From assembly GCA_017407645.1 (NCBI GenBank), contig JAFQWE010000031.1, positions 1 through 61,534 on the forward strand: DNA of 61,534 nucleotides, written 5' to 3'. Of the stretch, positions 9,788-51,856 are shown piece after piece. The notes under the pieces are model-generated. The model worked only from the letters and a program-made list of their open reading frames with translations, did not search any database and was not told the DNA's origin. Source of the DNA: Clostridia bacterium (GTDB lineage Bacteria > Bacillota > Clostridia > Oscillospirales > Acutalibacteraceae). Position 1 is the stretch's first letter. The number at the start of each line of letters is the position of its first letter. The position numbers and the translations under genes were made by a program.

Positions 9788-10117
9788 ATGACAAGCTATA
9801 TTTTTGCTTTTCTTGTTGGAGTTATATGCATTGTTCTTGGCATTTCAAATATGCGAGGAAATATCTCATCTTTACATTCATATCATAGAAACAGAGTTTC
9901 TGAAGAGGATAAGCTTCCCTTTGGAAAACAAGTAGGCTTGGGCATTGTTATTGTTGGAATCGGTATAATAATATTCAGTATTCTGTCTGTTGTAACTCTA
10001 TATACCGAAAACAACCTTTTTACATTAGTTGGTACCGCAATTTTGATTATTGGTATTATTGTGGGGCTCGTTATAAGTTTTAAAGCTATGATTAAATATA
10101 ACAAAGGTATATTCTAA
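9788..10117 (+). CDS. Small membrane protein of unknown function
   Basis: A 109-residue protein with three predicted membrane segments (about 4-20, 45-70 and 77-100). Between the first two lies a polar stretch, NMRGNISSLHSYHRNR followed by VSEEDKLPFGK. I recall this N-R/G-N-x-x-x-LHSYHR-x-RV pattern from small uncharacterised Bacillota membrane proteins but cannot name the family. It stands alone between nagA and a terminator at 10174-10211, with its own promoter. Confidence 0.75.
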   Translation: MTSYIFAFLVGVICIVLGISNMRGNISSLHSYHRNRVSEEDKLPFGKQVGLGIVIVGIGIIIFSILSVVTLYTENNLFTLVGTAILIIGIIVGLVISFKAMIKYNKGIF

Positions 10118-10173
10118 TCATAAAGTTCCTGTTAATATTGAGTTTATAATAATATCTGAATCAATATAACGTG

Positions 10174-10211
10174 CAAAAAACTCCCTAACCTTACGGCTTG
10201 GGAGTTTTTTG
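10174..10211. terminator. Bidirectional terminator between convergent genes
   Basis: AAAAAACTCCC pairs with GGGAGTTTTTT around an ACCTTACGGCTT-type loop, with A and T runs on both sides, so it can stop transcription from both the small membrane protein gene and the six-gene operon. ATATCTGAATC, the start of the recurring post-gene motif, occurs at 10152-10162. Confidence 0.8.
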
Positions 10212-10231
10212 TAACTTAAAACTGCGGTCAA

Positions 10232-11527
10232 TCAATATTTTTTCTTGATTACAGATAAAGCTTTATTATAATCCAGTTTTGTTTTGTGTTTCAGATCCAT
10301 AGGTAATTTTCTAAAACGAACGTAAACAACATCATTTCGTTTATGGGAAACCGTTCCCTCATAGCAAAAATAGATTCTTCCGCCATACACCAAAGAAAAT
10401 CCTTTTTTGACTTTTTTATTATTTGAAAGGATTTCCATATCCATCAAATAATTATAATGATCCACAGAAGAAAAAGCTTTTCTTCCAACAATATGCAGTC
10501 CGTCCGCATCAATATATCCAAGGTCGTTGCTGACTTGTTCTTTAGAATCGGTCAGCACCACATTGCCTCGGGAGCATATCTGCCCTACCCCGTTTTTATC
10601 TGTGTTCAAAAGGGATATTTCTACCCCCGTAACGTCTGTGGAAAGGGCAAAGGTTCTGCTAAATGATTTTAAATCCGCCTTTGCCATAAGCACACACTCA
10701 CTGGAGCCGTAAACATAAGAGATTTCGGCATTTGGGAAGTTGGCGTTTATCCTTTCGATTTCTCGTGGATAAAGCATTGCTCCGCCAATTGACACCCTTT
10801 TGACGAAAGGAAGGCAAGTCTTTAGCGCCAACAAATCGGCAATAGGCGCCAGCACAGCGGTTACACCATACTTCTTTATTTCTTCTTTTTTGATTTTTTG
10901 GGATATTACACAGGTAAGTCCGTTAAAGACAATAAACAATGCATAAATAGGAAGCTTTGAAAAAACTACGTCTTTCTTGCCGACAGATATATTTTCGGTT
11001 AAAACATTTATCTGTTCTTCAAGATCCTTTACGCTTCTGTATATTGGTTTGGGGTCACCCGTTGTGCCCGATGTAAAGGTAGTAAGCACAGTGCGGTGCC
11101 CATCGGTATTCTGAACACATACACCATCATCGAAAGATGAATACTTATCAATGGAAATAAATTCAAGGTCGTTTCCTATAACAGACTTTAAAAGCCTTGT
11201 AAAGCCATTGCAACAAACATATTTAATATTATTGCTTTTTAAAACCCTGCCGATACGTTTAATATCCCTATAAGAATCCATCACTACAAGATTTATGCCG
11301 TAGTACAATCCGGCAAACATAAGAAGATAAAATTCATAAGACGGCACAACAAGTATCAGCGCCTTGTCGCCGGCCACAAGCCCTTTGCTCTTCAAAAGGT
11401 TGACGGTGCGGTACATATCCGACAGCAGTTTTTTAAAAGATATACGGCGCCCGTGATAAACAAAGGCTGTTTTGTTTTCGTTTTCTTTGCAGGTGGCAAT
11501 AAACCTGTCGATAATAGACCTTTCCAT
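10232..11527 (-). CDS. AMP-forming acyl-CoA synthetase/ligase family protein
   Basis: A 431-residue adenylate-forming enzyme, last gene of the six-gene operon. It would activate a carboxylate with ATP, giving an acyl-AMP for transfer to CoA, a carrier or an amine. The P-loop-like TSGTTGDPKP (about 149-160), YGSSE (about 274) and DLGYIDADGLHIVGRK (about 337-352) are the A3, A5 and A7-A8 motifs. The C-terminal lid is short and ends with DLKHKTKLDY, where the A10 lysine is expected, so it seems complete though shorter than the usual 500 or so residues. The ATG is 3 bases past the previous stop. Substrate unknown; a fatty acid is only one option. Confidence 0.85.
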   Translation of the reverse strand: MERSIIDRFIATCKENENKTAFVYHGRRISFKKLLSDMYRTVNLLKSKGLVAGDKALILVVPSYEFYLLMFAGLYYGINLVVMDSYRDIKRIGRVLKSNNIKYVCCNGFTRLLKSVIGNDLEFISIDKYSSFDDGVCVQNTDGHRTVLTTFTSGTTGDPKPIYRSVKDLEEQINVLTENISVGKKDVVFSKLPIYALFIVFNGLTCVISQKIKKEEIKKYGVTAVLAPIADLLALKTCLPFVKRVSIGGAMLYPREIERINANFPNAEISYVYGSSECVLMAKADLKSFSRTFALSTDVTGVEISLLNTDKNGVGQICSRGNVVLTDSKEQVSNDLGYIDADGLHIVGRKAFSSVDHYNYLMDMEILSNNKKVKKGFSLVYGGRIYFCYEGTVSHKRNDVVYVRFRKLPMDLKHKTKLDYNKALSVIKKKY

Positions 11528-11530
11528 ATG

Positions 11531-12580
11531 TCAGTCCTTTTCATAACGGTAACAGTGAAGATAATAAAACGTACGGTTGTTGGTTTGATCCAGTTCGGTT
11601 TCCTTTAAGCCCGATAGATGCCGCTCAATCATCATATTATAAAGCAGCACCTGTCCGCCTGAATTTAGCGCCTTACAAATATTCTTTGAAAGCATTTCGG
11701 TAGTTTTCCCATCCATATATTCAAATATATCTGACAAATACATAAAGTCATATCTTTTATTGCTTTTGATCTCTTCTTGGAAGGAAACCTTTTTGATTTC
11801 TAAACGGGAAATATTCGCCTTGATCTTATAATAGTTTTCCTTTACAAGATAAGCAGGTAAAGCGATCATTCTTCCCTGCACGATATACTGAAGATAGGGA
11901 TTTTCTATATTAAGATTGTTTTCAACGCAAAGCTCAAACTTGCTTTTTTGCATCGAGGCAAGGCCGCCCTTTGCATACGCAAAATAATCTTTATCACGCC
12001 CGAGGATTTTCATTACCGTTTTTGAAAAAAAGAGGTTGAAAAGCATCCTGAATCGCAGATTGTTGAATTTTGTTTTATAAACCGTCCTCTGCTCATTCAG
12101 GTCCTTGGCTGACATAAAGCTGTCAATAGTTTTTTGAGAATTGGTTTTAGACAAAATATGCTTTTTGAAAATTTGAAAATAATTCTCAAACCTACCGCAA
12201 TTTATCAGACCCACTTGGGAAATAAGAAAGAAATGATTGTCGAAATATTCACGGGTCTCACTGTCTAAATACCCTTTTATTTGGTCGTAAATAAGTCCAC
12301 TGTCACCCTTCCCAATACCCAAAAGGGTCAAAAACTGCTCATACTCAAGATGCTCTATGCCGCATTTTTTAAGCTTACACAGAAAAATCTGGGTGTCATT
12401 ATAGTCGATTGCCAGAACGGATTCGGGATTGAGAAGCAAAAATGCCAAGGCATTATCCAAGCTCGAAGCCACCGTCAGAATAGACCTAGGGCTGCCCTTT
12501 ATATTGTTTAAGGCAAAATCCGCATCCTCATGGCAGTTGCTGTAGTGAATATATGATGCTTCTTTATAATACCGACGCAT
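11531..12580 (-). CDS. DUF3419 / BtaA-like SAM-dependent 3-amino-3-carboxypropyl transferase
   Basis: A 349-residue protein resembling DUF3419 (PF11899). The best-known member, BtaA, moves the 3-amino-3-carboxypropyl group of S-adenosylmethionine onto diacylglycerol in betaine-lipid synthesis. Evidence is YIHYSNCHEDADFAL near the N-terminus and the Rossmann signature SILTVASSLDNALAFLL, ending in the acidic AIDYND and KLKKCGIE. A second recognisable stretch is FMYLSDIFEYMD. ATG 12580 is preferred; the frame continues to a TTG at 12601 without a better ribosome site. It overlaps the dikinase gene by 17 bases. The acceptor in this operon is unknown. Confidence 0.75.
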   Translation of the reverse strand: MRRYYKEASYIHYSNCHEDADFALNNIKGSPRSILTVASSLDNALAFLLLNPESVLAIDYNDTQIFLCKLKKCGIEHLEYEQFLTLLGIGKGDSGLIYDQIKGYLDSETREYFDNHFFLISQVGLINCGRFENYFQIFKKHILSKTNSQKTIDSFMSAKDLNEQRTVYKTKFNNLRFRMLFNLFFSKTVMKILGRDKDYFAYAKGGLASMQKSKFELCVENNLNIENPYLQYIVQGRMIALPAYLVKENYYKIKANISRLEIKKVSFQEEIKSNKRYDFMYLSDIFEYMDGKTTEMLSKNICKALNSGGQVLLYNMMIERHLSGLKETELDQTNNRTFYYLHCYRYEKD

Positions 12581-14906
12581 ATTCTTTCTTATCTTCTTCA
12601 ACCGTCACTATCCCCTTTACTCCGTCTAAGGTCACCAAAGCACCGTCTGATATACGCTCGGTGACGTTTTCTATGCCTACAACAGCCGGCAGATTCATTT
12701 CGCGAGCCACAACAAAGCTGTGTGAGAGCATACTTCCGTGTTCTACAATAAGTCCGGCTGCTCTTGGAAACAGACCTATCCAGCCCGGATCGGTGCGTTT
12801 GGTCAAGATTAACTCGCCTGGCAACAATATATCGTTAGGTGAATTCATCAGCCGAACGCGAGCGGTAACAACACCTGCGCCGGTGGGAATACCGCACAAC
12901 CCGCCACCCTCGGCGGTTTGCCTTACAGGGAGCACTTTATCACCGTAAAAAACAATGCGGTCATAGGTGGGCTTTTGACGGTTTTGTTCCTGCTCAAGTT
13001 TTCGCATTTTAATCAAGCTTTTAAAGTCGCCGTTGCCGCTGAACACCTCCTGCTTTGTAAGATAAAAGATATCTCGCGGGTCATCTATTCTGCCGTCGTT
13101 ATAATAATTACGCCCATATGCCAAAAAGATATTTCTGACAACAGAATAAATATAGGTCCTTTTAAGCCGAAGCCTTTCTCGATTTTTAATGAATTTTTTT
13201 GTTTTCTCCCCAAGTCTTCTCAGTTTTTTCGGAATGTCGGTATTATCACATACGGGTTGGTCTAAGGTGAATCCCAAGGTTTGCTTAATTGCTCGGTAAA
13301 GTAAGGTTTCGTCCTCTATCATAGTTATGGTTTCAAGCTTTAGTTCGTCACCCACCCTTGCGCCAAACTCTAACCGATAACGGTTTAATGCCTCTGATAT
13401 TTTTGAATCATTTTTATATTTGACGGCAAGCCGGTCTTCGGTAAGATTTTCAAAATCCCAGAGCAACTCTTTGTCGGATCTTATTGTTTCAACTATATTG
13501 ATAAGTTGGGTGGCGCTGCCGACGCTTTTTACATTGCCATGATTAGAAATGTATTTATTTAACGTTTCCTTTGAGATGTTAAGCTTTTTTGCCTTTTCCC
13601 TTAACATTCCGAAATATATCATAACGGCACAGTCATTTATTATCGGCACAACAAATTCTTTAACTACCTTGCTCTCAATGGTGCAAAATAGCTCGTACAG
13701 TTCTTCGTTGCTGCCTGAAATAGTTCTGCCGTAGTAGGGTAAAACGATCTGGTCAAAGCGTTTTTCAAACCTATCGGAAATGGCATCAATCTTAATTAGC
13801 TTGCCTGCAAGTGCAACAACTATCTTGATCATATCAATAAGATTAAGACGAAGTTTTTTAAAGCTGTCGGTACTGCTCTTTACACCCATCATTCCTTCCA
13901 TATGTGATGCCGTTTTTTTGGCAGGAAAGATGGAATTAACGTGATACCAGCTGTTCATATTGTAGTATATTTTGCCCTCGTACATATACAGCATTTGAGC
14001 AAGGGACGGCTTAAGCTCGTCCAATATTTTTTTGCGAACCTTACCGCATTTGAGGGTTGCGGTATAGACGTCGCGGTAAACATCCTTTGCAAAGGTATAT
14101 GTAAGCGGAGAGGTTACACCAAAATAAGATTCTATTATATTGGAATTGTCGATAAATAAGCTTCTGTTTTTAGGATTTATATCCTTATATGCTACTACGG
14201 GGCGTGCTTGCAAAAAGTACACTGTGTTATTTACTACCGAAAACTCTATATCAAGAAAACACTCGGTTTTTTGAGAAACCGTTTTTATCATTTCAAGAAT
14301 AGCTTTAAGCTGTTTTTTTGTGAGAATATCTTCTCCGCGAAGTTTAACGTCTTTTCCGCTCAAGGTGTAAGTAGAGCCCGAAACAGAGCCGTCGACAATG
14401 CCTTCACCAAGCCCTTTTGTCACAGAAATAATAATTTCATCGGGATTGTTGGTAACCGGATTTATTGTAAATGCGACTCCCGAAAGCTCAGCCGCTACCA
14501 TTTCCTGAACTATAACAGCAATGCCTATATTCTTTGTGTCCATCTCATTGATTTTGCGGTATTCAATGGCTCGCTCAGAAAATGCACTGCGGTAAACCTT
14601 AAAAATATGCTCAAGAACATCCTCTTTTTTTACATTCAAAAAAGAAGAATGAATACCTGCAAAGCTGGCAGCTGCCGAATCCTCATCAACTGCAGAGCTT
14701 CGCACGGCATAAAGCTTGCGGCTATCCAGTTTTGAATTTAGCTCTTCTTGTAATTTCTCGGCAAGGGAGCTATCCTCCATATAATGAGAGAAGTAGCTCG
14801 CAGGGACTACCAATAAAGTCGGTGTGTTGGGTACATTTAAACTAAAAAGAGTGTGCGCTTTTCCGCCGATCTCCCGTACGTCTGCAACCTTATCAATCAG
14901 AATCAT
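12564..14906 (-). CDS. Dikinase-type phosphotransferase (PEP-synthase/rifampicin-phosphotransferase-like architecture)
   Basis: A 780-residue protein with the PPDK/PEP-synthase ATP-grasp domain at the N-terminus: GGKAHTLFSL (14-23), VRSSAVDEDSAAASFAG (about 68-84), QEMV...SGVAFT and LQARPV (about 233). The middle 250-640 is unique. The C-terminus has the swivelling phosphohistidine domain, EHGSMLSHSFVVAREM, with the likely catalytic His729, followed by LPAVVG. There is no PEP/pyruvate TIM barrel after it. The ATP, unique, His order is that of rifampicin phosphotransferase (Rph), so it probably splits ATP to AMP and phosphorylates a small molecule. GAGGTG precedes the ATG; it overlaps the upstream gene by 14 bases. 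Confidence 0.8.
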   Translation of the reverse strand: MILIDKVADVREIGGKAHTLFSLNVPNTPTLLVVPASYFSHYMEDSSLAEKLQEELNSKLDSRKLYAVRSSAVDEDSAAASFAGIHSSFLNVKKEDVLEHIFKVYRSAFSERAIEYRKINEMDTKNIGIAVIVQEMVAAELSGVAFTINPVTNNPDEIIISVTKGLGEGIVDGSVSGSTYTLSGKDVKLRGEDILTKKQLKAILEMIKTVSQKTECFLDIEFSVVNNTVYFLQARPVVAYKDINPKNRSLFIDNSNIIESYFGVTSPLTYTFAKDVYRDVYTATLKCGKVRKKILDELKPSLAQMLYMYEGKIYYNMNSWYHVNSIFPAKKTASHMEGMMGVKSSTDSFKKLRLNLIDMIKIVVALAGKLIKIDAISDRFEKRFDQIVLPYYGRTISGSNEELYELFCTIESKVVKEFVVPIINDCAVMIYFGMLREKAKKLNISKETLNKYISNHGNVKSVGSATQLINIVETIRSDKELLWDFENLTEDRLAVKYKNDSKISEALNRYRLEFGARVGDELKLETITMIEDETLLYRAIKQTLGFTLDQPVCDNTDIPKKLRRLGEKTKKFIKNRERLRLKRTYIYSVVRNIFLAYGRNYYNDGRIDDPRDIFYLTKQEVFSGNGDFKSLIKMRKLEQEQNRQKPTYDRIVFYGDKVLPVRQTAEGGGLCGIPTGAGVVTARVRLMNSPNDILLPGELILTKRTDPGWIGLFPRAAGLIVEHGSMLSHSFVVAREMNLPAVVGIENVTERISDGALVTLDGVKGIVTVEEDKKEYASVL

Positions 14907-15384
14907 CAGAACACCTCTTTCGCAAAATGATTATAATATCAAAAACTATAACAACAGCTATGATAAGCGGAATCCATCGGCTGTAAAGAAAAACAGTGTT
15001 AAATAGCGCTATCAATATAGCAGGAAGGAAAAGGGGTTTTATAAAATCTCGGTATTTTTCTTTGATCAAAAACTGTACCAATACGATTATAAGCGGCAAT
15101 AAAACCCAATAAAGTGCCAAAAACAAAGCCAAGCACAACAAAGCAAAAAAGACGCCTAACACCAAAAACACAAGCGTTTTTCTTCCAATTAACGCCTTGC
15201 CAACCCGTTGGTCACCTTCAAAATCCAAAATGTCATCGCACAGCCTTATAAGATATGCCATCAGAACAGTAACGACAAGCCCCACAACGTAAAGTCCGTC
15301 AACAGATGAAAATACAACACCCATTATCAAATATGAACAAGCTGCTAAAACACCGGGGAGAAGATACCGCTTTATTGCCAACAC
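14893..15384 (-). CDS. Half-size UbiA-like integral membrane protein
   Basis: A 163-residue protein, nearly all membrane (about five segments). After the second segment it has LIRLCDDILDFEGDQRVGKA, which fits the first Asp-rich motif of UbiA prenyltransferases (D-D-x-x-D-x-x-x-D), including the following basic residues. Normal UbiA proteins have about 280-300 residues and two Asp-rich motifs; the second is not visible, although KEKYRDFIKP could be a relic. The start is a GTG 1 base after the upstream stop; ATG in TAATG is out of frame. It could be a truncated, dimeric or non-catalytic relative. Family call is tentative. Confidence 0.6.
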   Translation of the reverse strand: MLAIKRYLLPGVLAACSYLIMGVVFSSVDGLYVVGLVVTVLMAYLIRLCDDILDFEGDQRVGKALIGRKTLVFLVLGVFFALLCLALFLALYWVLLPLIIVLVQFLIKEKYRDFIKPLFLPAILIALFNTVFLYSRWIPLIIAVVIVFDIIIILRKRCSDDSD

Positions 15385-15385
15385 A

Positions 15386-16456
15386 TTACCACCATCTTTT
15401 AGAATATATCTTTGCCTTTAACATTATCGAGTTATAATTCAAATCAGCGTATTCACAAAGCATCCTAAGTTCCTTTTCGGCAAGGTGCTTATCTATCTTT
15501 TCCGCCATTTTCAGAGTGGCCTCCTCTTTTGTGACTATACCTTCGTTTATCATAACCGAATACTCCGGCATCAGATGAGATCGCCTTGCAACTATGTTTT
15601 TTAAATAAAGTGCACCGTTATGAATAAGACAATCGAAATGCTCAGCTTCGGTTTCTACCCTCCAGGATGTGTTTTTCTCCAAAAAATCCACAATGTCCCG
15701 ATGGTCGTACGGATGATAAAGGAAGTAAGCAATGAAGTCTCTGTATCTCTTTGTCTTTGTATCCACAAGCAATTGGTTTTTTATATCGGATGCCAGTTGT
15801 TTGTCTACAAGCAAATCTATTTTGCCGATAATATCGCTATAAAGAGCGTTGAGGTCTGTGGGTTCATCCTTAAGTCCGGCATCGATAAAGGGCCGAAAAA
15901 CATCACTACTGCTGTCTGAAAGCCCTCTAAACATCTGATAGGTAGATCTTCCGTGAATACCAACCCGAGCATTTATCCGCGAGGCATAGTTTATCATTGC
16001 CGCGTAGCCCAAAAAAGAACATGCAATGCAGGGTGACAAGTATCTTGACACAATATATTTATAGGTCTTTTTCAGCAAAAAATCGTCATATACAACATAT
16101 TCATGCTCTACCCCGATCTCTTTAACCAATCGATCGATTTTAGACCTTGCTTCTTTTGACATAAAGCCGTTATCTAACGTATAAGCCTTTACCTTAAGCT
16201 TATAATCCTTAACCAGCTTGTAAAGCACATACGTTGAGTCTTTGCCTCCGGAAAACCCCACCGCTGCATCATAATCATAATTACCGGGCACCGTTATTTT
16301 ATTTAAAAACAGCTTTTTTAAATGATCATAATCCTTAATCAAGGGTTTATAACTATCGTAGCAGCTACAATGTGAGCAAAGGCCCTTTTCATCAAAGGTT
16401 ATGTTTTTGACAGTTGTGTCGTTTACACAGCGTGTGCAGCACCGATTATTTTTCAT
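15386..16456 (-). CDS. PP-loop ATPase, N-acetyl-sugar amidotransferase-like
   Basis: A 356-residue adenine-nucleotide alpha-hydrolase. Near the N-terminus RCCTRCVNDTTV and FDEKGLCSHC form the two CxxC pairs typical of the WbpG/PseA/LegG amidotransferase family. The PP-loop GFSGGKDS (about 62-69) binds ATP, and another pair, CIAC, lies near residue 145. Such enzymes adenylate a carbonyl and receive ammonia, usually with HisH/HisF-like partners; none is present here. GGAG lies 7 bases before ATG 16456; an ATG at 16477 lacks a site. It overlaps the HAD-GNAT gene by 11 bases. A thiolation role is a possible alternative. Confidence 0.75.
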   Translation of the reverse strand: MKNNRCCTRCVNDTTVKNITFDEKGLCSHCSCYDSYKPLIKDYDHLKKLFLNKITVPGNYDYDAAVGFSGGKDSTYVLYKLVKDYKLKVKAYTLDNGFMSKEARSKIDRLVKEIGVEHEYVVYDDFLLKKTYKYIVSRYLSPCIACSFLGYAAMINYASRINARVGIHGRSTYQMFRGLSDSSSDVFRPFIDAGLKDEPTDLNALYSDIIGKIDLLVDKQLASDIKNQLLVDTKTKRYRDFIAYFLYHPYDHRDIVDFLEKNTSWRVETEAEHFDCLIHNGALYLKNIVARRSHLMPEYSVMINEGIVTKEEATLKMAEKIDKHLAEKELRMLCEYADLNYNSIMLKAKIYSKRWW

Positions 16457-17903
16457 TATCAAACTCCAGCAGTGCATATTTCTTTTGTCTTACGAATGTG
16501 TTTTTAAAGAGGGCAAAGCTTTTTCTGGATCTAAGATTTTTAAAATGGTGAAGAACCTGAGTCTGTCCGCTTTTCTCCATCATTCTGTAAGAACTATCCA
16601 CAAGGCAGTACAAAATGCCAATATTGTTGCGCTCTTCTTTTTTTACGGCAATGGTCTTGCAAACATAAAATCGTTTTTCCGGATCTTCATAGCAAAAGCA
16701 GAATGCCACCGGTCTGTCAAAATGATAGATCATTACCAGATCGGGCACTATTCCCTTAAGCCCTTCTACATAAATATCAATGAAATCCTGACAGCTTATG
16801 GGCTCATAAAAATACGCATCGTCAAAAGCCTCCACCGCCACCTTATAAATATCTTCCAGACGCTCGTAAACTGCGTCACCGTACAGCTCTTCCACACGGT
16901 ATTCGTCAGAAAGCTTGGCTCGCTTTGCTTTTTTCCACATAAAGTGGTCTATCTCTGCCAACACTGAAACATATTCCTGATGTATTTTAAATCCGTTGTT
17001 CAAGAAGGTCGATATCTCTTTTTCACCTTTACAATCGGGATAAAGATGCCAATCAAAATTATCCATTGCAAATCTGTAAGGGTAATAGGTATTAGAGTCT
17101 ATTGGGCCGATAAGCTTACCTTGGCAAACAGACTTCAGTTCGTTTACCACTCTTTCAAAATTCTCGTCAACGCATTTTACAAATCCAAAATAGGTGGTAG
17201 ATTCGTCTTTGTGCATAAGTGTAACTTGATTATCACCACAAGAGATGACCCTATACGGTTTGCCCGAGGTCTGACGCTCCTTAATATTGATTTTGTCAAC
17301 AACTTCAAGCAGTTCAAGCGGTTTATTGATGGCATAATCATATTGCCCACACAGCTTATAGCCGTATTTGGCATAGCAAAAATATTGGGTATATCGATCT
17401 GTTAATGCATTATAATCGTCAGTGCAATCCCCCACAAAGAGCATTTTGCCACTAATGATTTTGGCGATTTTTGCAATATTTTCGTTTTTCTCTCCGTCTT
17501 CAATGGTGTATATACCCGTTATATGCTTTGCGGTGTTTGAAATATGTACAAAGGTGTCGGCATATGCTCTGGGACAGTTGGAAACAAGATATATTTCATA
17601 TTTTTCAGACAAACAGGAAAGCAGCTCGCCGATACCCTCAAAGCAACAGTCATCCCGATGAGAAAGCAGATATTCTATAGACAGATCAACCGCGCGGTAG
17701 GAAAGTTCGCGCTGATCTTCCACCGAGGGAAACAGGTTTATAAGGACTTCTTCCAGCTTAACTCCCAAATATTCTTTAACTGCACTGTCAGACATACGCT
17801 CGGTAATACCGTAAAGTTCACACAGTTTATGGTAAGCATATATATATGATGATCCGGTCTGCCACAAGGTGCCGTCCAAATCAAAAATTATTCCTTTCAG
17901 CAT
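16446..17903 (-). CDS. HAD-superfamily phosphatase fused to a GNAT-like acyltransferase domain
   Basis: A 485-residue two-domain protein, first gene of the operon. Residues 1-215 are a haloacid-dehalogenase hydrolase: FDLDGTLW (Asp8, Asp10), VSNC near 107, a basic residue in the following helix and FVGDCTDDYNA near 178. Residues 225-485 look like an acyltransferase of GNAT type; GPIDSNTYYPYRF and the central YVEGL-KGIVPDL region resemble GNAT proteins that use a similar G-P-x-x-x-x-T-x-x-x-Y-R motif. The HAD half would dephosphorylate an intermediate and the GNAT half acylate an amine. AGGAG precedes the ATG. The fusion suggests consecutive steps. Confidence 0.75.
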   Translation of the reverse strand: MLKGIIFDLDGTLWQTGSSYIYAYHKLCELYGITERMSDSAVKEYLGVKLEEVLINLFPSVEDQRELSYRAVDLSIEYLLSHRDDCCFEGIGELLSCLSEKYEIYLVSNCPRAYADTFVHISNTAKHITGIYTIEDGEKNENIAKIAKIISGKMLFVGDCTDDYNALTDRYTQYFCYAKYGYKLCGQYDYAINKPLELLEVVDKINIKERQTSGKPYRVISCGDNQVTLMHKDESTTYFGFVKCVDENFERVVNELKSVCQGKLIGPIDSNTYYPYRFAMDNFDWHLYPDCKGEKEISTFLNNGFKIHQEYVSVLAEIDHFMWKKAKRAKLSDEYRVEELYGDAVYERLEDIYKVAVEAFDDAYFYEPISCQDFIDIYVEGLKGIVPDLVMIYHFDRPVAFCFCYEDPEKRFYVCKTIAVKKEERNNIGILYCLVDSSYRMMEKSGQTQVLHHFKNLRSRKSFALFKNTFVRQKKYALLEFDNEK

Positions 17904-17955
17904 TTTTACAACTCCTATATATACTTGAGGGTTTTTAGACTAAAAATCTTTCATT

Positions 17956-17984
17956 ATTTTAGCATATTTTGAGGAAAAATGCAA
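17956..17984 (-). promoter_or_regulatory. Promoter of the six-gene operon
   Basis: On the minus strand TTGCAT (17984-17979) and TAAAAT (17961-17956) are separated by 17 bases, about 50 bases before the ATG of the HAD-GNAT gene. No second promoter is obvious inside the operon, where genes overlap or lie within 3 bases. Confidence 0.65.
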
Positions 17985-18089
17985 CATTCGGAACTATGAA
18001 CGGTATCTGGACATAATTTAACTTTCAAAAATGTATTAAATATGGTAACGGTCTGTTGCAGGGAAATATTCAAACCCATAACAAAAAAA

Positions 18090-18118
18090 CAAGTCGTAAC
18101 GGCTTGGGATTTTTTACA
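18090..18118. terminator. Short terminator-like hairpin
   Basis: CAAGTC pairs with GGCTTG around GTAAC, followed by GGATTTTTT and preceded by an A run. It lies between the divergent operon promoter and the TIR-Sel1 promoter and has no obvious gene of its own upstream. It resembles the terminator at 10174-10211. Confidence 0.5.
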
Positions 18119-18138
18119 AAGTAAGAATTGGTTTCCCG

Positions 18139-18167
18139 TTGAAAAAATCCATTATTTATGTTACACT
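18139..18167 (+). promoter_or_regulatory. Promoter of the TIR-Sel1 gene
   Basis: TTGAAA (18139-18144) and TACACT (18162-18167) with a 17-base spacer lie 25 bases before the TTG start. Confidence 0.6.
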
Positions 18168-18192
18168 GTATAAAACAAGGGAGGCGTAAATT

Positions 18193-19776
18193 TTGTCTAA
18201 AGATATTTTTATTTCATACAGAAACGACGGATGCAGCAACCAGTTCGCTCACCGATTGGCAAGTGACCTGATGGAATTGGGATACAGCGTTTATTTTAAC
18301 CCTAACGAGCAACATAGTGACTGCTTTCCCGAACGTCTTAAAAATGCCGTCAGAGAATGCAAAGACTTTATATTAGTCCTCTCCCCTGCTTGCATAGAGC
18401 GACTTATGCGAGATGACGACATTGATTGGGTGCGAGAAGAAATTCTGACTGCCAAAGCAAACGGCAAGCACATAGTTCCCGTTTTGGTAGACGGTGCGGC
18501 AATGCCCTCAAGACCTGAGGATATGCCCGAAAGCTTAAGCTTTCTGCCTTACGTGGATGCCGTCAAGCTGCCCGATGAATATATGAACTCTCCCTTTACC
18601 ACTCTGCTTGTGGGACTTAACTCCAAGCAGGACGGACGAGACAGATATAAGGATGCCTTTAACAGCAATCCCGATTACCCCGTGGACCAAATTTTCAGTC
18701 AGCTGTCTGACCAAGCCAAAGAGGGCAACGTTGAGGCTATGTATGAGCTTGCCATGATTCACTACTACGGTGTAACCTCTGCCGATGGGCAGTCAAGCTT
18801 TGATTATGAGCAGGCGGTTTATTGGCTTCGTCTGGTATCGGAAGCCGACCATCCTTTGTGCCACGAGGCAGAAAACATCCTTGCCCGTATGTACTATAAC
18901 GGCACCGTTCCCGCAGAGCCTCAATCCTACGAAAAGGCAATGGAATACATAGAGCGTGCCGCACCCTATAGCGAATATGCAAAGTCCCAAAAGGCATACC
19001 ATTTAAGAGAAGGCATAGGTTGTAAATTTGACTTTAACAAATACTTGGATTTTCTTAAAGAGGACTTTGACACCGGCGATAATATGAGAGCTGTCGGTCT
19101 TGCAAATTTCTATATAAAATACGGCAAGTACGATGAAGCAATGGCGGTCTATGATTCCATAGAAAACCTGACTCCCGACATAAACTATCAAATCGGTATG
19201 CTTTACCGCAATGGTGTGCTTTCTGACCCGCCAAATCCCGATTTTATGCAGGCGGCTTACTATCTGCGAAATGCGGCTGACGAAAATCACGTTAACGCCG
19301 CCTTTGAATACGGTATGCTTTGCTTCCGCCCGACAGGCAGATTTCGCAAGGATTTTCGCAGTGCGGAAAAATACCTGAAGATGGCGGCTGACGGCGGCCA
19401 TGCAACTGCGCAGTACGTTCTTGGATTTATGTACAAATCAGGTCACGTCACCAGAGATTTGCCTTTGGCGGTGGAATATTTTGAAAAGGCAAAGGCTCAG
19501 GGCAATTCTTTCTCTGCTATGGAGCTTGCCTCCCTATATCAGCAACCCGAAGTGCAGAACTATCAGCGCGCCTATGAGTGCGCTTTGATGGCGGCTGAAC
19601 ACGGCGTTGCCGAGGGTGAATTCCTTTTGGCAAATCTGCTCTTTTTGGGCAGAGGTTGTGAGCCTGACGTCAATAAGGCGTATGAGCTTTTCAAAAAAGC
19701 GTATGCCCACGGAATCCACTACGCATCGGTAATGGTTGCGCGTATTGACAAGCTTAAAAATGAAAAACATATATAA
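18193..19776 (+). CDS. TIR-domain protein with Sel1-like repeats
   Basis: A 527-residue cytoplasmic protein. Residues 1-140 are a TIR domain: DIFISYRNDG at the first strand, GYSVYFN, ILVLSPACIER, and DWVREEI, whose Glu fits the catalytic Glu of NAD-cleaving TIR enzymes. From about 165 to the end there are seven or eight Sel1/TPR-like repeats of 36-44 residues (for example AMYELAMIHYYG, YVLGFMYKSG, FLLANLLFLGRG). The start is TTG with GGGAGGCG 7 bases upstream. It is monocistronic. TIR plus helical repeats occurs in signalling and anti-phage proteins, but no defence gene adjoins it; NADase activity is inference. Confidence 0.85.
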   Translation: MSKDIFISYRNDGCSNQFAHRLASDLMELGYSVYFNPNEQHSDCFPERLKNAVRECKDFILVLSPACIERLMRDDDIDWVREEILTAKANGKHIVPVLVDGAAMPSRPEDMPESLSFLPYVDAVKLPDEYMNSPFTTLLVGLNSKQDGRDRYKDAFNSNPDYPVDQIFSQLSDQAKEGNVEAMYELAMIHYYGVTSADGQSSFDYEQAVYWLRLVSEADHPLCHEAENILARMYYNGTVPAEPQSYEKAMEYIERAAPYSEYAKSQKAYHLREGIGCKFDFNKYLDFLKEDFDTGDNMRAVGLANFYIKYGKYDEAMAVYDSIENLTPDINYQIGMLYRNGVLSDPPNPDFMQAAYYLRNAADENHVNAAFEYGMLCFRPTGRFRKDFRSAEKYLKMAADGGHATAQYVLGFMYKSGHVTRDLPLAVEYFEKAKAQGNSFSAMELASLYQQPEVQNYQRAYECALMAAEHGVAEGEFLLANLLFLGRGCEPDVNKAYELFKKAYAHGIHYASVMVARIDKLKNEKHI

Positions 19777-48226: not shown

Positions 48227-51200
48227 CTATTCAGACAAAAAATCACAAACCCATTCGATTGTACAAGCCCTATGGGGAGTTTTGCTGTGCAAATGGCTTA
48301 ATGTATCATTACCACCGTTAGCATCTACAAGTATGCGTATTTCTTCCATTTGAATAATCTTTTTTTCAGTACCATCATCATACCAACCTATTTGGCTCAA
48401 AAATCCGACAATATTGTCATCCATCATTGTTGGGGCAGCATAAATTGTCATCTCATATTCATCTTTTTCGTAAATCTTATAAAGGTTTTTAACTTTAAAA
48501 AATTCGCTTATTTCAGATACAGTCGAAAAAGTTGTAGGCAACCAGAATGTATAATTGTTAAGGTCTATATCAGTAGCATTATAATCAACACTTGCAATAG
48601 CATAATATTTTGTGTGACGAGGTTCAGAATAATTTAGTTCACTTGTTAAAGAATATTCTCCAGTATAACAAGGTCCAAAAAACGCGTTACAGTCTAACCC
48701 TGTATTATAGTTTCCGCCATACATACAACTCTCTGGGTACAAGTCATGGTCACATATATAATGAAAAACACCTGCATCGTTTGATAATTTTGCTAAGTCA
48801 CTACCCCAATGAGGTGTACCTATGGTAATAAGCTTATCAACATTTTCATCACAATCTAAGTTCTCTATATAGTATCGTGAGACAAGACCGCCCATACTAT
48901 GTGCAACTATATTGATGTGAAAAAGTTTGTTAGTTTCAGAGGTGTTTTCCATATCTTCTCTCGATTTAAAGAAGCACACCTTCATCTTATCCGAACCTGA
49001 AGTTTTAACATAATCAATCAAATTATCAATATATTTATCGAACTTCTCTGCGCTATATTTAACTGCATCTTCATTAGGATAGTTGAAGGCAAACAAGTTT
49101 ATGTTTTCAGTGTATCCAGCATCAACTAATTCTTTGCCAAGATTTCTTGGTTTATCTTCATCGTCTTCAGTTCCATCATCATCTGTATCTCCGCTGTTAT
49201 CATATATTCCGTCTTTCACTATCTTTTGACTGTCTACACTAATGTATTTTTTACCATTTAATGCATCAGCATATTCATCTGTGTTAAAATGGTCGTTTTG
49301 TTCTTCCGGTATACCGTTTTTTACGCCCCAAACTTTTTCAGAATTATCTATTCTTCCGTGTATCAAAAAAACAGGGGTTTTACCTCTTACCCAAACCTCA
49401 CATTCCTGATACATAGTATAATCATTTGAAGCAGTTGCTCTTACAGTACATATTCCGCTATCAACTGCAACAAATTCACCGTGCCCTACAGATACAACAA
49501 CAGAACTGTCACTGCTTGACCATACAACATCTACATCATCATTGTTAGTTGTTGCAAATAGCGCAAAAGAGTCATATACATCTACTGAAACAGTATACTT
49601 ATCCAAGCTCAGCCCCACACTCAAATGCCAAGTACACGAATAAGGCTCATTACGCCCGGTTATTGGGCTTTTAACAGAAAAAGATACGGTTATATCGGTT
49701 GAGCCCACAGCCTTGCATTTTACATATGCGTGGTAGCGGTCGTAAGATACAAGTTCGGCAACATCTTCATTGACTATATCGATACTATAGTTGGCATCAA
49801 TGGGTGCTATAGAATAATGGAACGGCACGTTTTCGCCAACAACACCGCTTATGTTGGTATCGCCATCTGCAAACACGCCATAGTCTGCAAGTTCAAACTC
49901 CCAACGCTGATTATCAAGTCCCTTAACCTTTTCTTGAACAATGGGTGTGCCGTTTTCTTTGTTATAGTTTTTAGCCGCAACGGCTTTCTTCCCCGCTGTC
50001 AGAACGCGATGATACTGTTCGGTTTGTTCAACTATGTAGAAGCAAGTTCCGTCTCCTACACCTGCAGGTACTGAGGATTCATTACGCCATTCAATAGTGC
50101 TGCTGCCCGATGATTTTAAATAGTCATTTTTTGCGGTACCAACGCTGTATATATAATACATACCAACGTTTTGGTCGTAAACCTCGTCAACTCTCTTTAC
50201 GTACCATATCTGATTGGGGTCGGCTTGGTTGAAATCTCTCAGTTCTGCTCCCGTGCTTGTTGCAGTCATATATCTGGCACCATCGTAGTAATAGCCTGAC
50301 TGTATGTAATAATAGCCTGATGGAAGTAAGGCTTGGTCAACCGTATACCTGACTGTAACCATAGGCGCATTTGACGTCCCCGGTGAACATAACGTTGCAT
50401 TCATTGTTCCGCTTGAGGGTAAAGAATAAAGGAAAAGTCCGTCCTCAGCAGAAATAGTATTTTCACGGCTGTAATATTTGGTGTAGGCTGTCATCCAAGA
50501 CTTAAAAACATCTGTAATATATAATTGCGTTGTGTTGGTTATTTGAGCAACATTTTCTGACGAATTAGTGCATCGCGATGCCACACTATTCCAATTTAAG
50601 TTTGAAATTACTGTGCTTGGGTCGGTAGTAAAGTTATGACCTATAGCATAAAGGTTGCCCATTCCGTCTACATTAAAGTCTGAGAATTTAAGGGAAAGAT
50701 AAGCATACTCTATCTCTTTGGGATTAATATGGGCAAAGGTTGTCAAATCGACCATTTGCAAATGTGTTATTGCAGTTGCACCGGAACTGTTATTTGATAT
50801 TTCGTTAACAGAGGTTGATACACTTCCGTCACTTTTATAGGTGGTTGCCTTAAACTGTGTTGACCATTCAGTGTCTTTAATTGCTTCAATTTCAGGATCC
50901 ACAACAACAGGATAAACGGTGTTTTCGTCGGTCAAAAACTCCTCGTCAATGATAAGAGTTACCAAATACTTGCCGTCGTCGATTTCCTCAACAGTGTAGG
51001 AGTTGTTGCTGTTAGTTGCAGGCATATCGGCTGAGTCAAACAGCACTATCTCACCAAGGGTATATACGGTCTGCAAATTGCCGTCATAAAACTCTACGGT
51101 TTTGCCTGCACTTCGCACAGGGGTAAGCCCCTCTGCCTCAACAATATACTCAAAGGTGTTATTGCCGTTGTAGGCTTCAAGGATTATATCTTCCTTAACA

Positions 51201-51793
51201 CCCTCATTAATAGCAGTATAACGGATATTGGTGTTTTTGTCAAATACATCCTTATAAAGCACATACTCAGTATTACCCTCTTCAACCTTTGATGACATAC
51301 TGAGTCTTGCACCCTTTGGAGTCATACGAATATTGCCCTGTTCACTTTCAACAAGCACACCTGTGCCGATAAACAAGGGGAAATAGGTTTTAACTGAGTT
51401 TGCAGTGTTTTCGTATGAGTACCAATCGAAAAGTCCGTCTGCCTTAACACAAGGCTTAAGACTGCTGTCGATAAAGCGCACGTATCCCTCTTCATCCACG
51501 TATTTAATGGGGGAATCGTAGGAATATAGCGTTTTTGTGCCGTCTGCATCCACTGTTGTCAGCACATTTTCACGCTCGGCATCGGCACTGTCAAGAGTTG
51601 CCCTTGACCAGCCCGAATTAAGATGGCGGCGCAAGCTCTTAGGCAGTTCATTAACGGTGTAATGTGCTAATCTATTGAATGCTTGCTGCACATCCTCCAG
51701 TGTCAGTGCCGTTGCTGATGCTTGTACACAGGTGAACATCATTGCCATACAAAGCACCAACGACACAATGCGGATTGTTAGTCTTTTTGTCAT
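48227..51793 (-). CDS. Large secreted lipase-like protein with DNRLRE-like, ricin-B and Big_2-like domains
   Basis: A 1188-residue secreted protein. A signal peptide (1-29, ending ASATA) is followed by a region resembling wall-associated/RHS leader domains with VYPVVVDPEI and a DNRLRE-like beta domain. A ricin-B lectin domain (about 490-640) has QIWYVKRV and DNQRWEFEL. A Big_2-like domain (about 735-810) contains VVWSSSDSSV. A catalytic alpha/beta-hydrolase follows: FLIHGR, AHSMGG with the nucleophile Ser (about 985), and a C-terminal LSHLHS as likely His. GDTDDDGTEDDEDKP may bind calcium. AAGGTC precedes ATG 51793. It likely cleaves an ester in bound glycan or lipid. Confidence 0.85.
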   Translation of the reverse strand: MTKRLTIRIVSLVLCMAMMFTCVQASATALTLEDVQQAFNRLAHYTVNELPKSLRRHLNSGWSRATLDSADAERENVLTTVDADGTKTLYSYDSPIKYVDEEGYVRFIDSSLKPCVKADGLFDWYSYENTANSVKTYFPLFIGTGVLVESEQGNIRMTPKGARLSMSSKVEEGNTEYVLYKDVFDKNTNIRYTAINEGVKEDIILEAYNGNNTFEYIVEAEGLTPVRSAGKTVEFYDGNLQTVYTLGEIVLFDSADMPATNSNNSYTVEEIDDGKYLVTLIIDEEFLTDENTVYPVVVDPEIEAIKDTEWSTQFKATTYKSDGSVSTSVNEISNNSSGATAITHLQMVDLTTFAHINPKEIEYAYLSLKFSDFNVDGMGNLYAIGHNFTTDPSTVISNLNWNSVASRCTNSSENVAQITNTTQLYITDVFKSWMTAYTKYYSRENTISAEDGLFLYSLPSSGTMNATLCSPGTSNAPMVTVRYTVDQALLPSGYYYIQSGYYYDGARYMTATSTGAELRDFNQADPNQIWYVKRVDEVYDQNVGMYYIYSVGTAKNDYLKSSGSSTIEWRNESSVPAGVGDGTCFYIVEQTEQYHRVLTAGKKAVAAKNYNKENGTPIVQEKVKGLDNQRWEFELADYGVFADGDTNISGVVGENVPFHYSIAPIDANYSIDIVNEDVAELVSYDRYHAYVKCKAVGSTDITVSFSVKSPITGRNEPYSCTWHLSVGLSLDKYTVSVDVYDSFALFATTNNDDVDVVWSSSDSSVVVSVGHGEFVAVDSGICTVRATASNDYTMYQECEVWVRGKTPVFLIHGRIDNSEKVWGVKNGIPEEQNDHFNTDEYADALNGKKYISVDSQKIVKDGIYDNSGDTDDDGTEDDEDKPRNLGKELVDAGYTENINLFAFNYPNEDAVKYSAEKFDKYIDNLIDYVKTSGSDKMKVCFFKSREDMENTSETNKLFHINIVAHSMGGLVSRYYIENLDCDENVDKLITIGTPHWGSDLAKLSNDAGVFHYICDHDLYPESCMYGGNYNTGLDCNAFFGPCYTGEYSLTSELNYSEPRHTKYYAIASVDYNATDIDLNNYTFWLPTTFSTVSEISEFFKVKNLYKIYEKDEYEMTIYAAPTMMDDNIVGFLSQIGWYDDGTEKKIIQMEEIRILVDANGGNDTLSHLHSKTPHRACTIEWVCDFLSE

Positions 51794-51827
51794 ATATTGT
51801 GACCTTCTTTCATAATAAGTTAAACAA

Positions 51828-51856
51828 ACAATACCACTATTGTGAAAGAAAGTCAA
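51828..51856 (-). promoter_or_regulatory. Promoter of the lipase-like operon
   Basis: On the minus strand TTGACT (51856-51851), 17 bases, TATTGT (51833-51828), 35 bases before the ATG. Confidence 0.6.

Follow-up and report, generated by a model that had tools for sequence, protein, structure and literature searches.

Gene content and boundaries of the locus

The window, the whole 61,534-nucleotide stretch of Clostridia bacterium DNA analysed (contig JAFQWE010000031.1), contains six intact minus-strand open reading frames between positions 10232 and 17903, followed by a hairpin. The features, from gene 1 to gene 6, are:

16446..17903, minus strand: gene 1, HAD phosphatase domain (N-terminal ~200 aa) and GNAT N-acyltransferase domain (C-terminal ~290 aa); HAD_2 5e-14, hhalign
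15386..16477, minus strand: gene 2, PP-loop ATP-pyrophosphatase, WbpG/WbuX-related, with N-terminal CxxC..CxxC; TIGR03573 3.5e-37, below cut-off
14893..15384, minus strand: gene 3, short UbiA-like membrane protein, N-terminal UbiA part with the first Asp-rich motif (RxxDDxxDxxxD) only; motif and predicted fold
12564..14906, minus strand: gene 4, Rph-like dikinase with ATP-grasp PPDK_N, middle and C-terminal swivelling His domains; PF01326, PF00391
11531..12601, minus strand: gene 5, DUF3419 (BtaA-like), presumed SAM-dependent 3-amino-3-carboxypropyl (ACP) transferase of a dikinase-linked subfamily; PF11899 4e-50
10232..11527, minus strand: gene 6, compact AMP-forming ligase (431 aa), nearest to the PRK09274/OleC group; PF00501 6e-27, PRK09274 1.9e-27
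10174..10211, minus strand: terminator-like hairpin; -22.9 kcal/mol, z -5.4

The six genes are a real operon. With the longest start of each frame, successive genes overlap by 32 bases, lie 1 base apart, overlap by 14, overlap by 38 and lie 3 bases apart. Internal ATG starts read from the sequence at 16456 and 12580 shrink two of these overlaps to 11 and 17, which reproduces the overlaps of up to 17 bases and gaps within 3 bases described in the original prediction. The promoter placed there at 17984-17956 was absent from the sites listed by a promoter scan of both strands of 9900-18300, which gave 38 sites against 23 expected. The hairpin (12 + 4 pairs) lies 20 bases past the last stop, and its 3' arm ends in six U. 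None of 200 shuffled sequences was equally stable, and the hairpin was absent from the output of a simple terminator scan. The GC content of the operon was 39.6%, compared with 42.3% and 43.2% in the flanks, and 2 of 108 same-sized windows were lower. This is suggestive of recent import, although composition alone is not decisive.

Conservation of the operon and its relatives

A genome scan with the dikinase found nine other loci in MAGs of Clostridia, Bacilli and Acholeplasmatales. In six of the nine, all six genes recur in an unchanged order (L003, L004, L005, L007, L008 and L010). Chance neighbourhood is rejected on this conserved order, and a strain-specific set is rejected as well. The original prediction had proposed that conservation of at least four of the six genes in distant genomes would support a pathway, and the operon goes beyond this mark. 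Variant operons were present in four further genomes, in three of which the short UbiA-like protein is fused to the dikinase (L064, L065 and L066). Two MAGs (L006 and L009) have the dikinase and lack the DUF3419 and PP-loop genes; these look like losses, though the MAGs may be incomplete. Their dikinases nest within the type A dikinases defined below, and the L009 gene is split in two frames.

We examined 27 loci with both a dikinase and a DUF3419 gene, from Bacillota/Mycoplasmatota, Bacteroidota and one alphaproteobacterial plasmid. A UbiA-type protein and a GNAT were present in all 27 and an AMP-ligase in 24, indicating that the operon belongs to a wider pathway family, in which it represents the type A branch. 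Of the UbiA-type proteins, 16 belong to the full-length kind, a further 8 are short and 3 are fused to the dikinase. The PP-loop gene occurs in 11/11 type A and 0/16 type B loci, and a membrane protein of unassigned family (MP) in 14/16 type B and 0/11 type A loci. One type B cluster lies on plasmid NZ_CP121116.1 of Roseinatronobacter sp. S2. Pairwise distances of the proteins correlate (r 0.92-0.96), with none of 500 shuffles as high; shared species history contributes to this correlation too. A scan of viral_contigs gave no confirmed dikinase relative among 58 pattern matches.

The type B MP carries a motif that we take to resemble that of phytol/dolichol-type CTP-dependent kinases. This assignment is unproven: no such Pfam match was found in nine members and there was no solved relative, PF01148 being hit in one of nine genomes at E 0.007, below its cut-off.

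The dikinase and the UbiA-like protein

The dikinase matched PPDK_N (PF01326) at 6e-49 and PEP-utilizers (PF00391) at 9e-21, in the order ATP-grasp, middle domain and C-terminal His domain that is seen in Rph, RedH and PigC. Both domains of the Rph-type dikinase expected from the first reading are therefore present, and the protein is presumed from its sequence to be an ATP-dependent phosphotransferase. The ATP-site and His motifs were found in 28 of the 29 listed dikinase loci, the exception being the split L009 gene. Its closest solved relatives were 5hv2, 5fbs and 5hv1 (about 1e-87), deposited as PEP synthase, which we take to be Rph. The NCBIfam matches include RedH, PigC and Rph, but the scores lie far under the equivalog cut-offs (214.4 bits for Rph, cut-off 999). 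The present type also differs from these enzymes in its company, since a UbiA-type protein, DUF3419 and GNAT accompany it in 27 of the 29 loci.

The gene 3 protein gave no Pfam UbiA (PF01040) match, in contrast to its full-length relatives in L011 and L018. Its predicted fold is UbiA, and VIA-align of the model gave best matches that include archaeal digeranylgeranylglyceryl phosphate (DGGGP) synthase. The first Asp-rich motif, shared with UbiA prenyltransferases, was invariant in 8/8 proteins. Unlike those enzymes, the type A protein stops before the second Asp-rich motif and lacks the remainder, so it does not carry both motifs; in most type B proteins the second-motif region reads ExxRKxR...E or nearly so. 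The original assignment to UbiA thus holds for the predicted fold, but the protein is truncated to the N-terminal part. Because half of the UbiA active site is missing, prenyl or alkyl transfer by this protein is doubtful. The fusion in L064-L066 suggests that it and the dikinase act together.

The PP-loop enzyme, the HAD-GNAT fusion and the AMP-forming ligase

The gene 2 protein shares the PP-loop motif SGGKDS and the N-terminal CxxC pairs with the WbpG/WbuX/PseA N-acetyl sugar amidotransferases. It was first described as WbpG-type, and it is a related PP-loop enzyme, but its score of 128.2-128.6 bits falls short of the 203.2 bits required by the curated WbuX family TIGR03573. It also differs in having extra cysteines, Cys150, Cys153 and Cys283, and in that no glutaminase partner is among the six operon genes. 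The SGGKDS motif and the cysteines, including the extra ones, were invariant in 11/11 type A orthologues. The extra cysteines were missing from L088, the one above-cut-off WbuX homologue examined; L089, which is below the cut-off, has cysteines near the first pair. We take the extra cysteines to resemble those of TtuA/TtcA thiolases, a likeness that bears on whether the enzyme's chemistry involves sulphur or nitrogen. The relationship to WbpG raises the alternative of a cell-envelope or glycan modification, with sugar amidation by the PP-loop enzyme and with the HAD and UbiA-like proteins acting on polyprenyl carriers. The sub-threshold WbuX score argues against it, as does the lack of any gene for glycosyl transfer or nucleotide-sugar synthesis in the six-gene set, and we regard it as improbable.

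Gene 1 had been read as an HAD phosphatase. Its N-terminal half is an HAD domain with the motifs DLDGT and VGDxxxD, but the reading was incomplete, as a fused C-terminal GNAT was overlooked. The gene 1 protein had no Pfam GNAT match; its C-terminal half aligned with the GNATs of related clusters by hhalign (P 100, E 1.9e-39; control pair P 0.7). Among the related clusters, the GNAT proteins of L011 and of L002, a locus identical to L023, gave PF00583 matches of 1.2e-11 and 3.5e-11, respectively. L010 keeps a reduced HAD half, and L021 has none.

The AMP ligase proposed for gene 6 agrees with its PF00501 match, and the protein contains the motif TSGTTG and the tail PxDxKHxxK. The OleC/PRK09274 ligases are its best family match, and the tail motif PxDxxHxxK presumably resembles that of OleC. 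It differs from that group in being compact and far under the cut-offs (60.5 bits against NCBIfam OleC, cut-off 900), and no OleA/B/D-like gene is among the six operon genes.

The DUF3419 enzyme and comparison with betaine-lipid synthesis

The PF11899 match of gene 5 spans residues 18-325 of 356. We compared DUF3419 columns in three sets: type A, type B and five proteins from L077, L078, L082, L083 and L086. All three sets conserve 21 columns; in 17 of these the majority residue is identical across the sets, and in 3 it differs solely in type A. The BtaA-type core residues are thus shared, as the BtaA-like label of the original prediction implied. BtaA converts diacylglycerol and SAM into diacylglycerol-O-homoserine, according to PMC10685587. 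The family match and core residues would fit an operon for a betaine or homoserine lipid (DGTS-like), in which the ACP group of SAM is presumably moved to a hydroxyl and the remaining genes supply or tailor diacylglycerol. However, type A forms a clade of its own in the DUF3419 tree (99/98), and the dikinase-linked proteins lie on one side of a branch with support 95/87. L082, L083 and L086, in which a class I (BtaB-like) methyltransferase stands beside DUF3419, form a separate clade (100/100, with long branches there). No BtaB-like methyltransferase was found among the six operon genes by open reading frames and family matches, and, unlike the BtaA/BtaB pathway, the operon contains several extra enzymes in a fixed arrangement. 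Since its DUF3419 enzyme groups with dikinase-linked relatives, apart from the three with a BtaB-like neighbour, we consider a betaine-lipid operon very improbable.

No dikinase lies near the two close DUF3419 relatives, L077 and L078. On a Rhizobium plasmid, DUF3419 lies within a different set (ketoacyl synthase III, CoF synthetase), so family membership is no proof of a lipid.

Proposed pathway and product

We give about an even chance to the reading that the operon encodes a membrane-associated pathway making an ACP-bearing lipid or lipid-like conjugate. A lipid or lipid conjugate is favoured by the lipid genes of some relatives. Both L074 and L075 encode PS decarboxylase and fatty acyl-CoA reductase, with a DAG kinase in L075, and in L077 DUF3419 is fused to a PEMT-type methyltransferase and adjoins a DAG kinase. 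The DGGGP synthase match of the predicted UbiA fold is a further hint of lipid. These markers are limited to a few Bacteroidota type B clusters or the dikinase-free L077, and the type A operon itself contains none; only a minority of the genes flanking type A operons could be identified. Also weighing against this reading are the L006 and L009 dikinases that lack DUF3419 and PP-loop companions, the 3 of 27 clusters devoid of an AMP-ligase, and the dikinase-free L077 and L078. The original suggestion of an undescribed conserved pathway, possibly for a modified lipid, stands as to conservation, and the accessory genes of some related clusters hint at lipid.

From the gene content and order, the families, the intact motifs, the fusion and the parallel divergence, we infer the lipidic product, all substrates and the order of steps. 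The dikinase would phosphorylate a lipid, or an alcohol precursor of one, with ATP. The UbiA-derived membrane module may hold the phosphorylated or diphosphorylated isoprenyl or alkyl substrate, as a reduced transferase or a docking subunit for the dikinase. The DUF3419 enzyme would then place the ACP group of SAM on a hydroxyl, in the manner of BtaA with diacylglycerol, and the GNAT domain may acylate the newly added alpha-amine. The OleC-type ligase would adenylate a carboxylate, which the ACP group itself might provide. In type A, the PP-loop enzyme may then exchange a carbonyl or carboxyl oxygen for nitrogen or sulphur, and a phosphate would be removed by the HAD domain.

Rph-like dikinases act on soluble small molecules too. 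The product could be a small soluble specialised metabolite of the antibiotic, signal or metallophore type, built on a soluble core by ACP transfer, N-acylation, adenylation and PP-loop chemistry, with the membrane module merely anchoring the dikinase. The truncation of the short UbiA and its fusion to the dikinase are consistent with this, as are the RedH, PigC and Rph matches and a Mur-ligase-like gene directly after the type A operon in L064, L065 and L066. The distribution of the operon is rare and patchy (5 of 391 genomes of its class, its own genome counted; a single, already known case among 245 genomes of another order), which is typical of specialised metabolism. Against it, family matches to Pfam and NCBIfam recognised no exporter or self-resistance gene among the six operon genes, and some related clusters include lipid-metabolism enzymes. 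We regard a soluble product as possible, if rather doubtful.

Within the lipid reading, we tentatively propose a specific structure, with limited confidence. The family may make a novel bacterial lipid of the isoprenyl/alkyl ether type with a SAM-derived ACP head group, N-acylated and carboxyl-activated; type A would yield an amide, amidine or thio-acid derivative, and the truncated UbiA would be the membrane half of a dikinase complex.

In line with the original statement that no cluster with this set was known, the literature searched, including passages of PMC12419801, PMC10491745 and PMC10685587, gave no description of the operon or the wider pathway family. The locus belongs to a conserved biosynthetic gene family spanning at least Bacillota/Mycoplasmatota, Bacteroidota and one alphaproteobacterium. 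The family includes dikinases fused to a truncated UbiA and provides a second large genomic setting for DUF3419, a domain familiar from betaine lipids.

Structure of the operon in the window

The operon spans 10232-17903 on the minus strand, a stretch filled by six ORFs that are transcribed in the following order:

10232-17903, minus strand:
HAD protein (HAD domain fused to GNAT)
PP-loop enzyme
Short membrane protein (truncated UbiA-like, N-terminal part only)
Rph-like dikinase
DUF3419 protein (BtaA-like)
AMP-ligase

With the longest starts, the spacings were -32, +1, -14, -38 and +3 bases; when internal ATG starts were taken, two of the overlaps shrank to 11 and 17 bases, in agreement with the original prediction. 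The last gene is followed by a strong hairpin with six U at the end of its 3' arm. This hairpin was absent from the output of a simple terminator scan, and the promoter that had been proposed for the operon was absent from that of a promoter scan. Divergent from the operon, window 18193-19776 encodes a protein with a TIR domain (PF13676, 1e-13) and Sel1 repeats, whose sequence possibly points to a role in TIR signalling or defence. Window 48227-51856 encodes a 1209-aa protein, and its sole matches at E 1e-5 were alpha/beta-hydrolase families near the C-terminus.

Conservation and rarity of the operon

We scanned genome contigs with the dikinase as the query and obtained nine loci. The results showed all six genes, in the window order, at six of them: L003, L004 and L005 (Clostridia), L007 and L008 (Bacilli), and L010 (Acholeplasmatales), where the HAD half was reduced. 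The genes flanking the operons varied in size and strand from locus to locus. The ninth locus, L011 (Bacteroidales), held a related cluster. At L006 and L009 the dikinase stood alone (split in two frames in L009), and searches of these two genomes returned no DUF3419 or PP-loop match. In the dikinase tree, both solo dikinases were placed inside the clade of type A, the window-like branch with a PP-loop gene, so the rest of the operon appears to have been lost there. The operon family was rare, being found in its own genome and 1 of 97 other relatives, and, within the class, in its own genome and 4 of 390 others. In two other orders, 2 of 43 and 1 of 245 genomes were positive, every one an already known locus.

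A wider dikinase and DUF3419 family

Additional loci were collected by DUF3419 searches of genomes and one plasmid search. A dikinase lay within the fetched stretch for 18 of the 20 strong DUF3419 genome matches examined (1 + 4 + 4 + 11 from four genome searches), which is not an unbiased rate, since each search started either from the window protein itself or from a profile of dikinase-linked rows; the stretches of L077 and L078 contained none. No dikinase was near any of the five weaker matches examined, which were drawn from 34 genomes, with another search's 13 weaker genomes outside this count. Dikinase and DUF3419 were joined in 27 loci, type B being related clusters without the PP-loop gene:

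Type A (11): window, L003, L004, L005, L007, L008, L010, L021, L064, L065, L066
Type B (16): L011, L018, L019, L020, L022, L023, L067-L076

All 27 loci contained a GNAT and a UbiA-type protein. Eight had a short, stand-alone UbiA-type protein, three (L064-L066) had it joined to the N-terminus of the dikinase (937 aa), and the other 16 encoded the full-length kind, which in L019 is broken across two frames. Of the 27 loci, 24 had the AMP-ligase, with the L022 and L023 genes cut by the contig end; it was missing from L011, L074 and L075. The PP-loop gene occurred in 11/11 type A and 0/16 type B loci, and a membrane protein (MP) in 14/16 type B and 0/11 type A loci. Type B loci without MP were L023, whose stretch ends near there, and L075, which has a DAG kinase. 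A Mur-ligase-like gene lies directly 3' of the type A AMP-ligase at L064:6814-8082 (overlapping it by 4 bases), L065:9795-11033 and L066:11732-12973.

The one named strain among the loci was Roseinatronobacter sp. S2, whose plasmid cluster is annotated as follows:

NZ_CP121116.1: UbiA, PEP/pyruvate-binding protein, DUF3419 protein, two hypothetical proteins (MP and GNAT by our assignment), AMP-binding protein

DUF3419 was also seen in another set on a Rhizobium plasmid (L084), annotated ketoacyl synthase III, oxidoreductase, MBL-fold hydrolase and CoF synthetase, and on a Shinella plasmid (L085) with unannotated ORFs matching the L084 sizes.

Phylogeny and protein distances

A 37-row tree of DUF3419 proteins placed type A in a single clade (99/98) amid type B rows, and a branch (95/87) set the 27 dikinase-linked rows on one side. 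L082, L083 and L086, in which a class I methyltransferase adjoins DUF3419, like BtaB, formed their own clade (100/100). Deep placements in this tree are unsure because several branches, including L083, are long. The dikinase tree also separated type A, together with the two solo genes, from type B. Protein distances, compared without L006, L009, L022, L023, L064 and L077, were correlated in five pairings (r 0.92-0.96; 21 or 24 loci), and 0 of 500 shuffles were as high; species history by itself also generates correlation.

Conserved residues of the operon enzymes

By sequence, each operon enzyme is near a known family. Among 21 DUF3419 columns conserved across type A, type B and a BtaA-like set, 17 had the same majority residue and 3 were changed in type A only; the core residues are kept. 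The AMP-ligase tail PxDxxHxxK, which we take to resemble that of OleC, was kept in the 22 of 24 proteins long enough to include it, with one residue changed in L010; a PRK09274 match is a further likeness to OleC. The PP-loop enzyme retained SGGKDS, and its Cys150, Cys153 and Cys283 were invariant in 11/11 type A proteins. L088, the sole above-cut-off WbuX homologue compared, lacks these cysteines, while L089, which scored below the cut-off, has cysteines close to the first two. The PP-loop enzyme may insert either N or S.

Possible product and novelty

The best-supported account, which we hold with even confidence, is that the operon makes a lipid or lipid conjugate bearing an aminocarboxypropyl (ACP) group. 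DUF3419 is known from BtaA, which converts diacylglycerol and SAM to diacylglycerol-O-homoserine (PMC10685587; PMC10491745). The main rival product, a soluble metabolite, is less probable. Lipid enzymes were accessory genes of some related clusters. In L074 and L075 (Bacteroidota), PS decarboxylase and fatty acyl-CoA reductase occur with UbiA, dikinase, GNAT and DUF3419, and the L075 cluster includes its DAG kinase; the decarboxylase could convert an ACP head group to an aminopropyl one. Of seven same-placed genes (419-430 aa), two were tested, those of L071 and L073, and both encode HMG-CoA-reductase-like proteins. At L077:9073-10935, DUF3419 is fused to a PEMT-type methyltransferase and adjoins DAG kinase and GNAT, with a PLP decarboxylase nearby; this fusion is a possible alternative betaine-lipid enzyme. 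The GNAT would acylate the new alpha-amine following ACP transfer, a natural reading because GNAT also adjoins DUF3419 in dikinase-free L080.

The titles, abstracts and passages of the literature searched yielded no published description of this gene set. Curated cut-offs placed none of the operon enzymes in Rph, WbuX or OleC, and the window operon lacks the BtaB adjacency of BtaA/BtaB. We regard the operon as a new biosynthetic operon family assembled from known enzyme folds.
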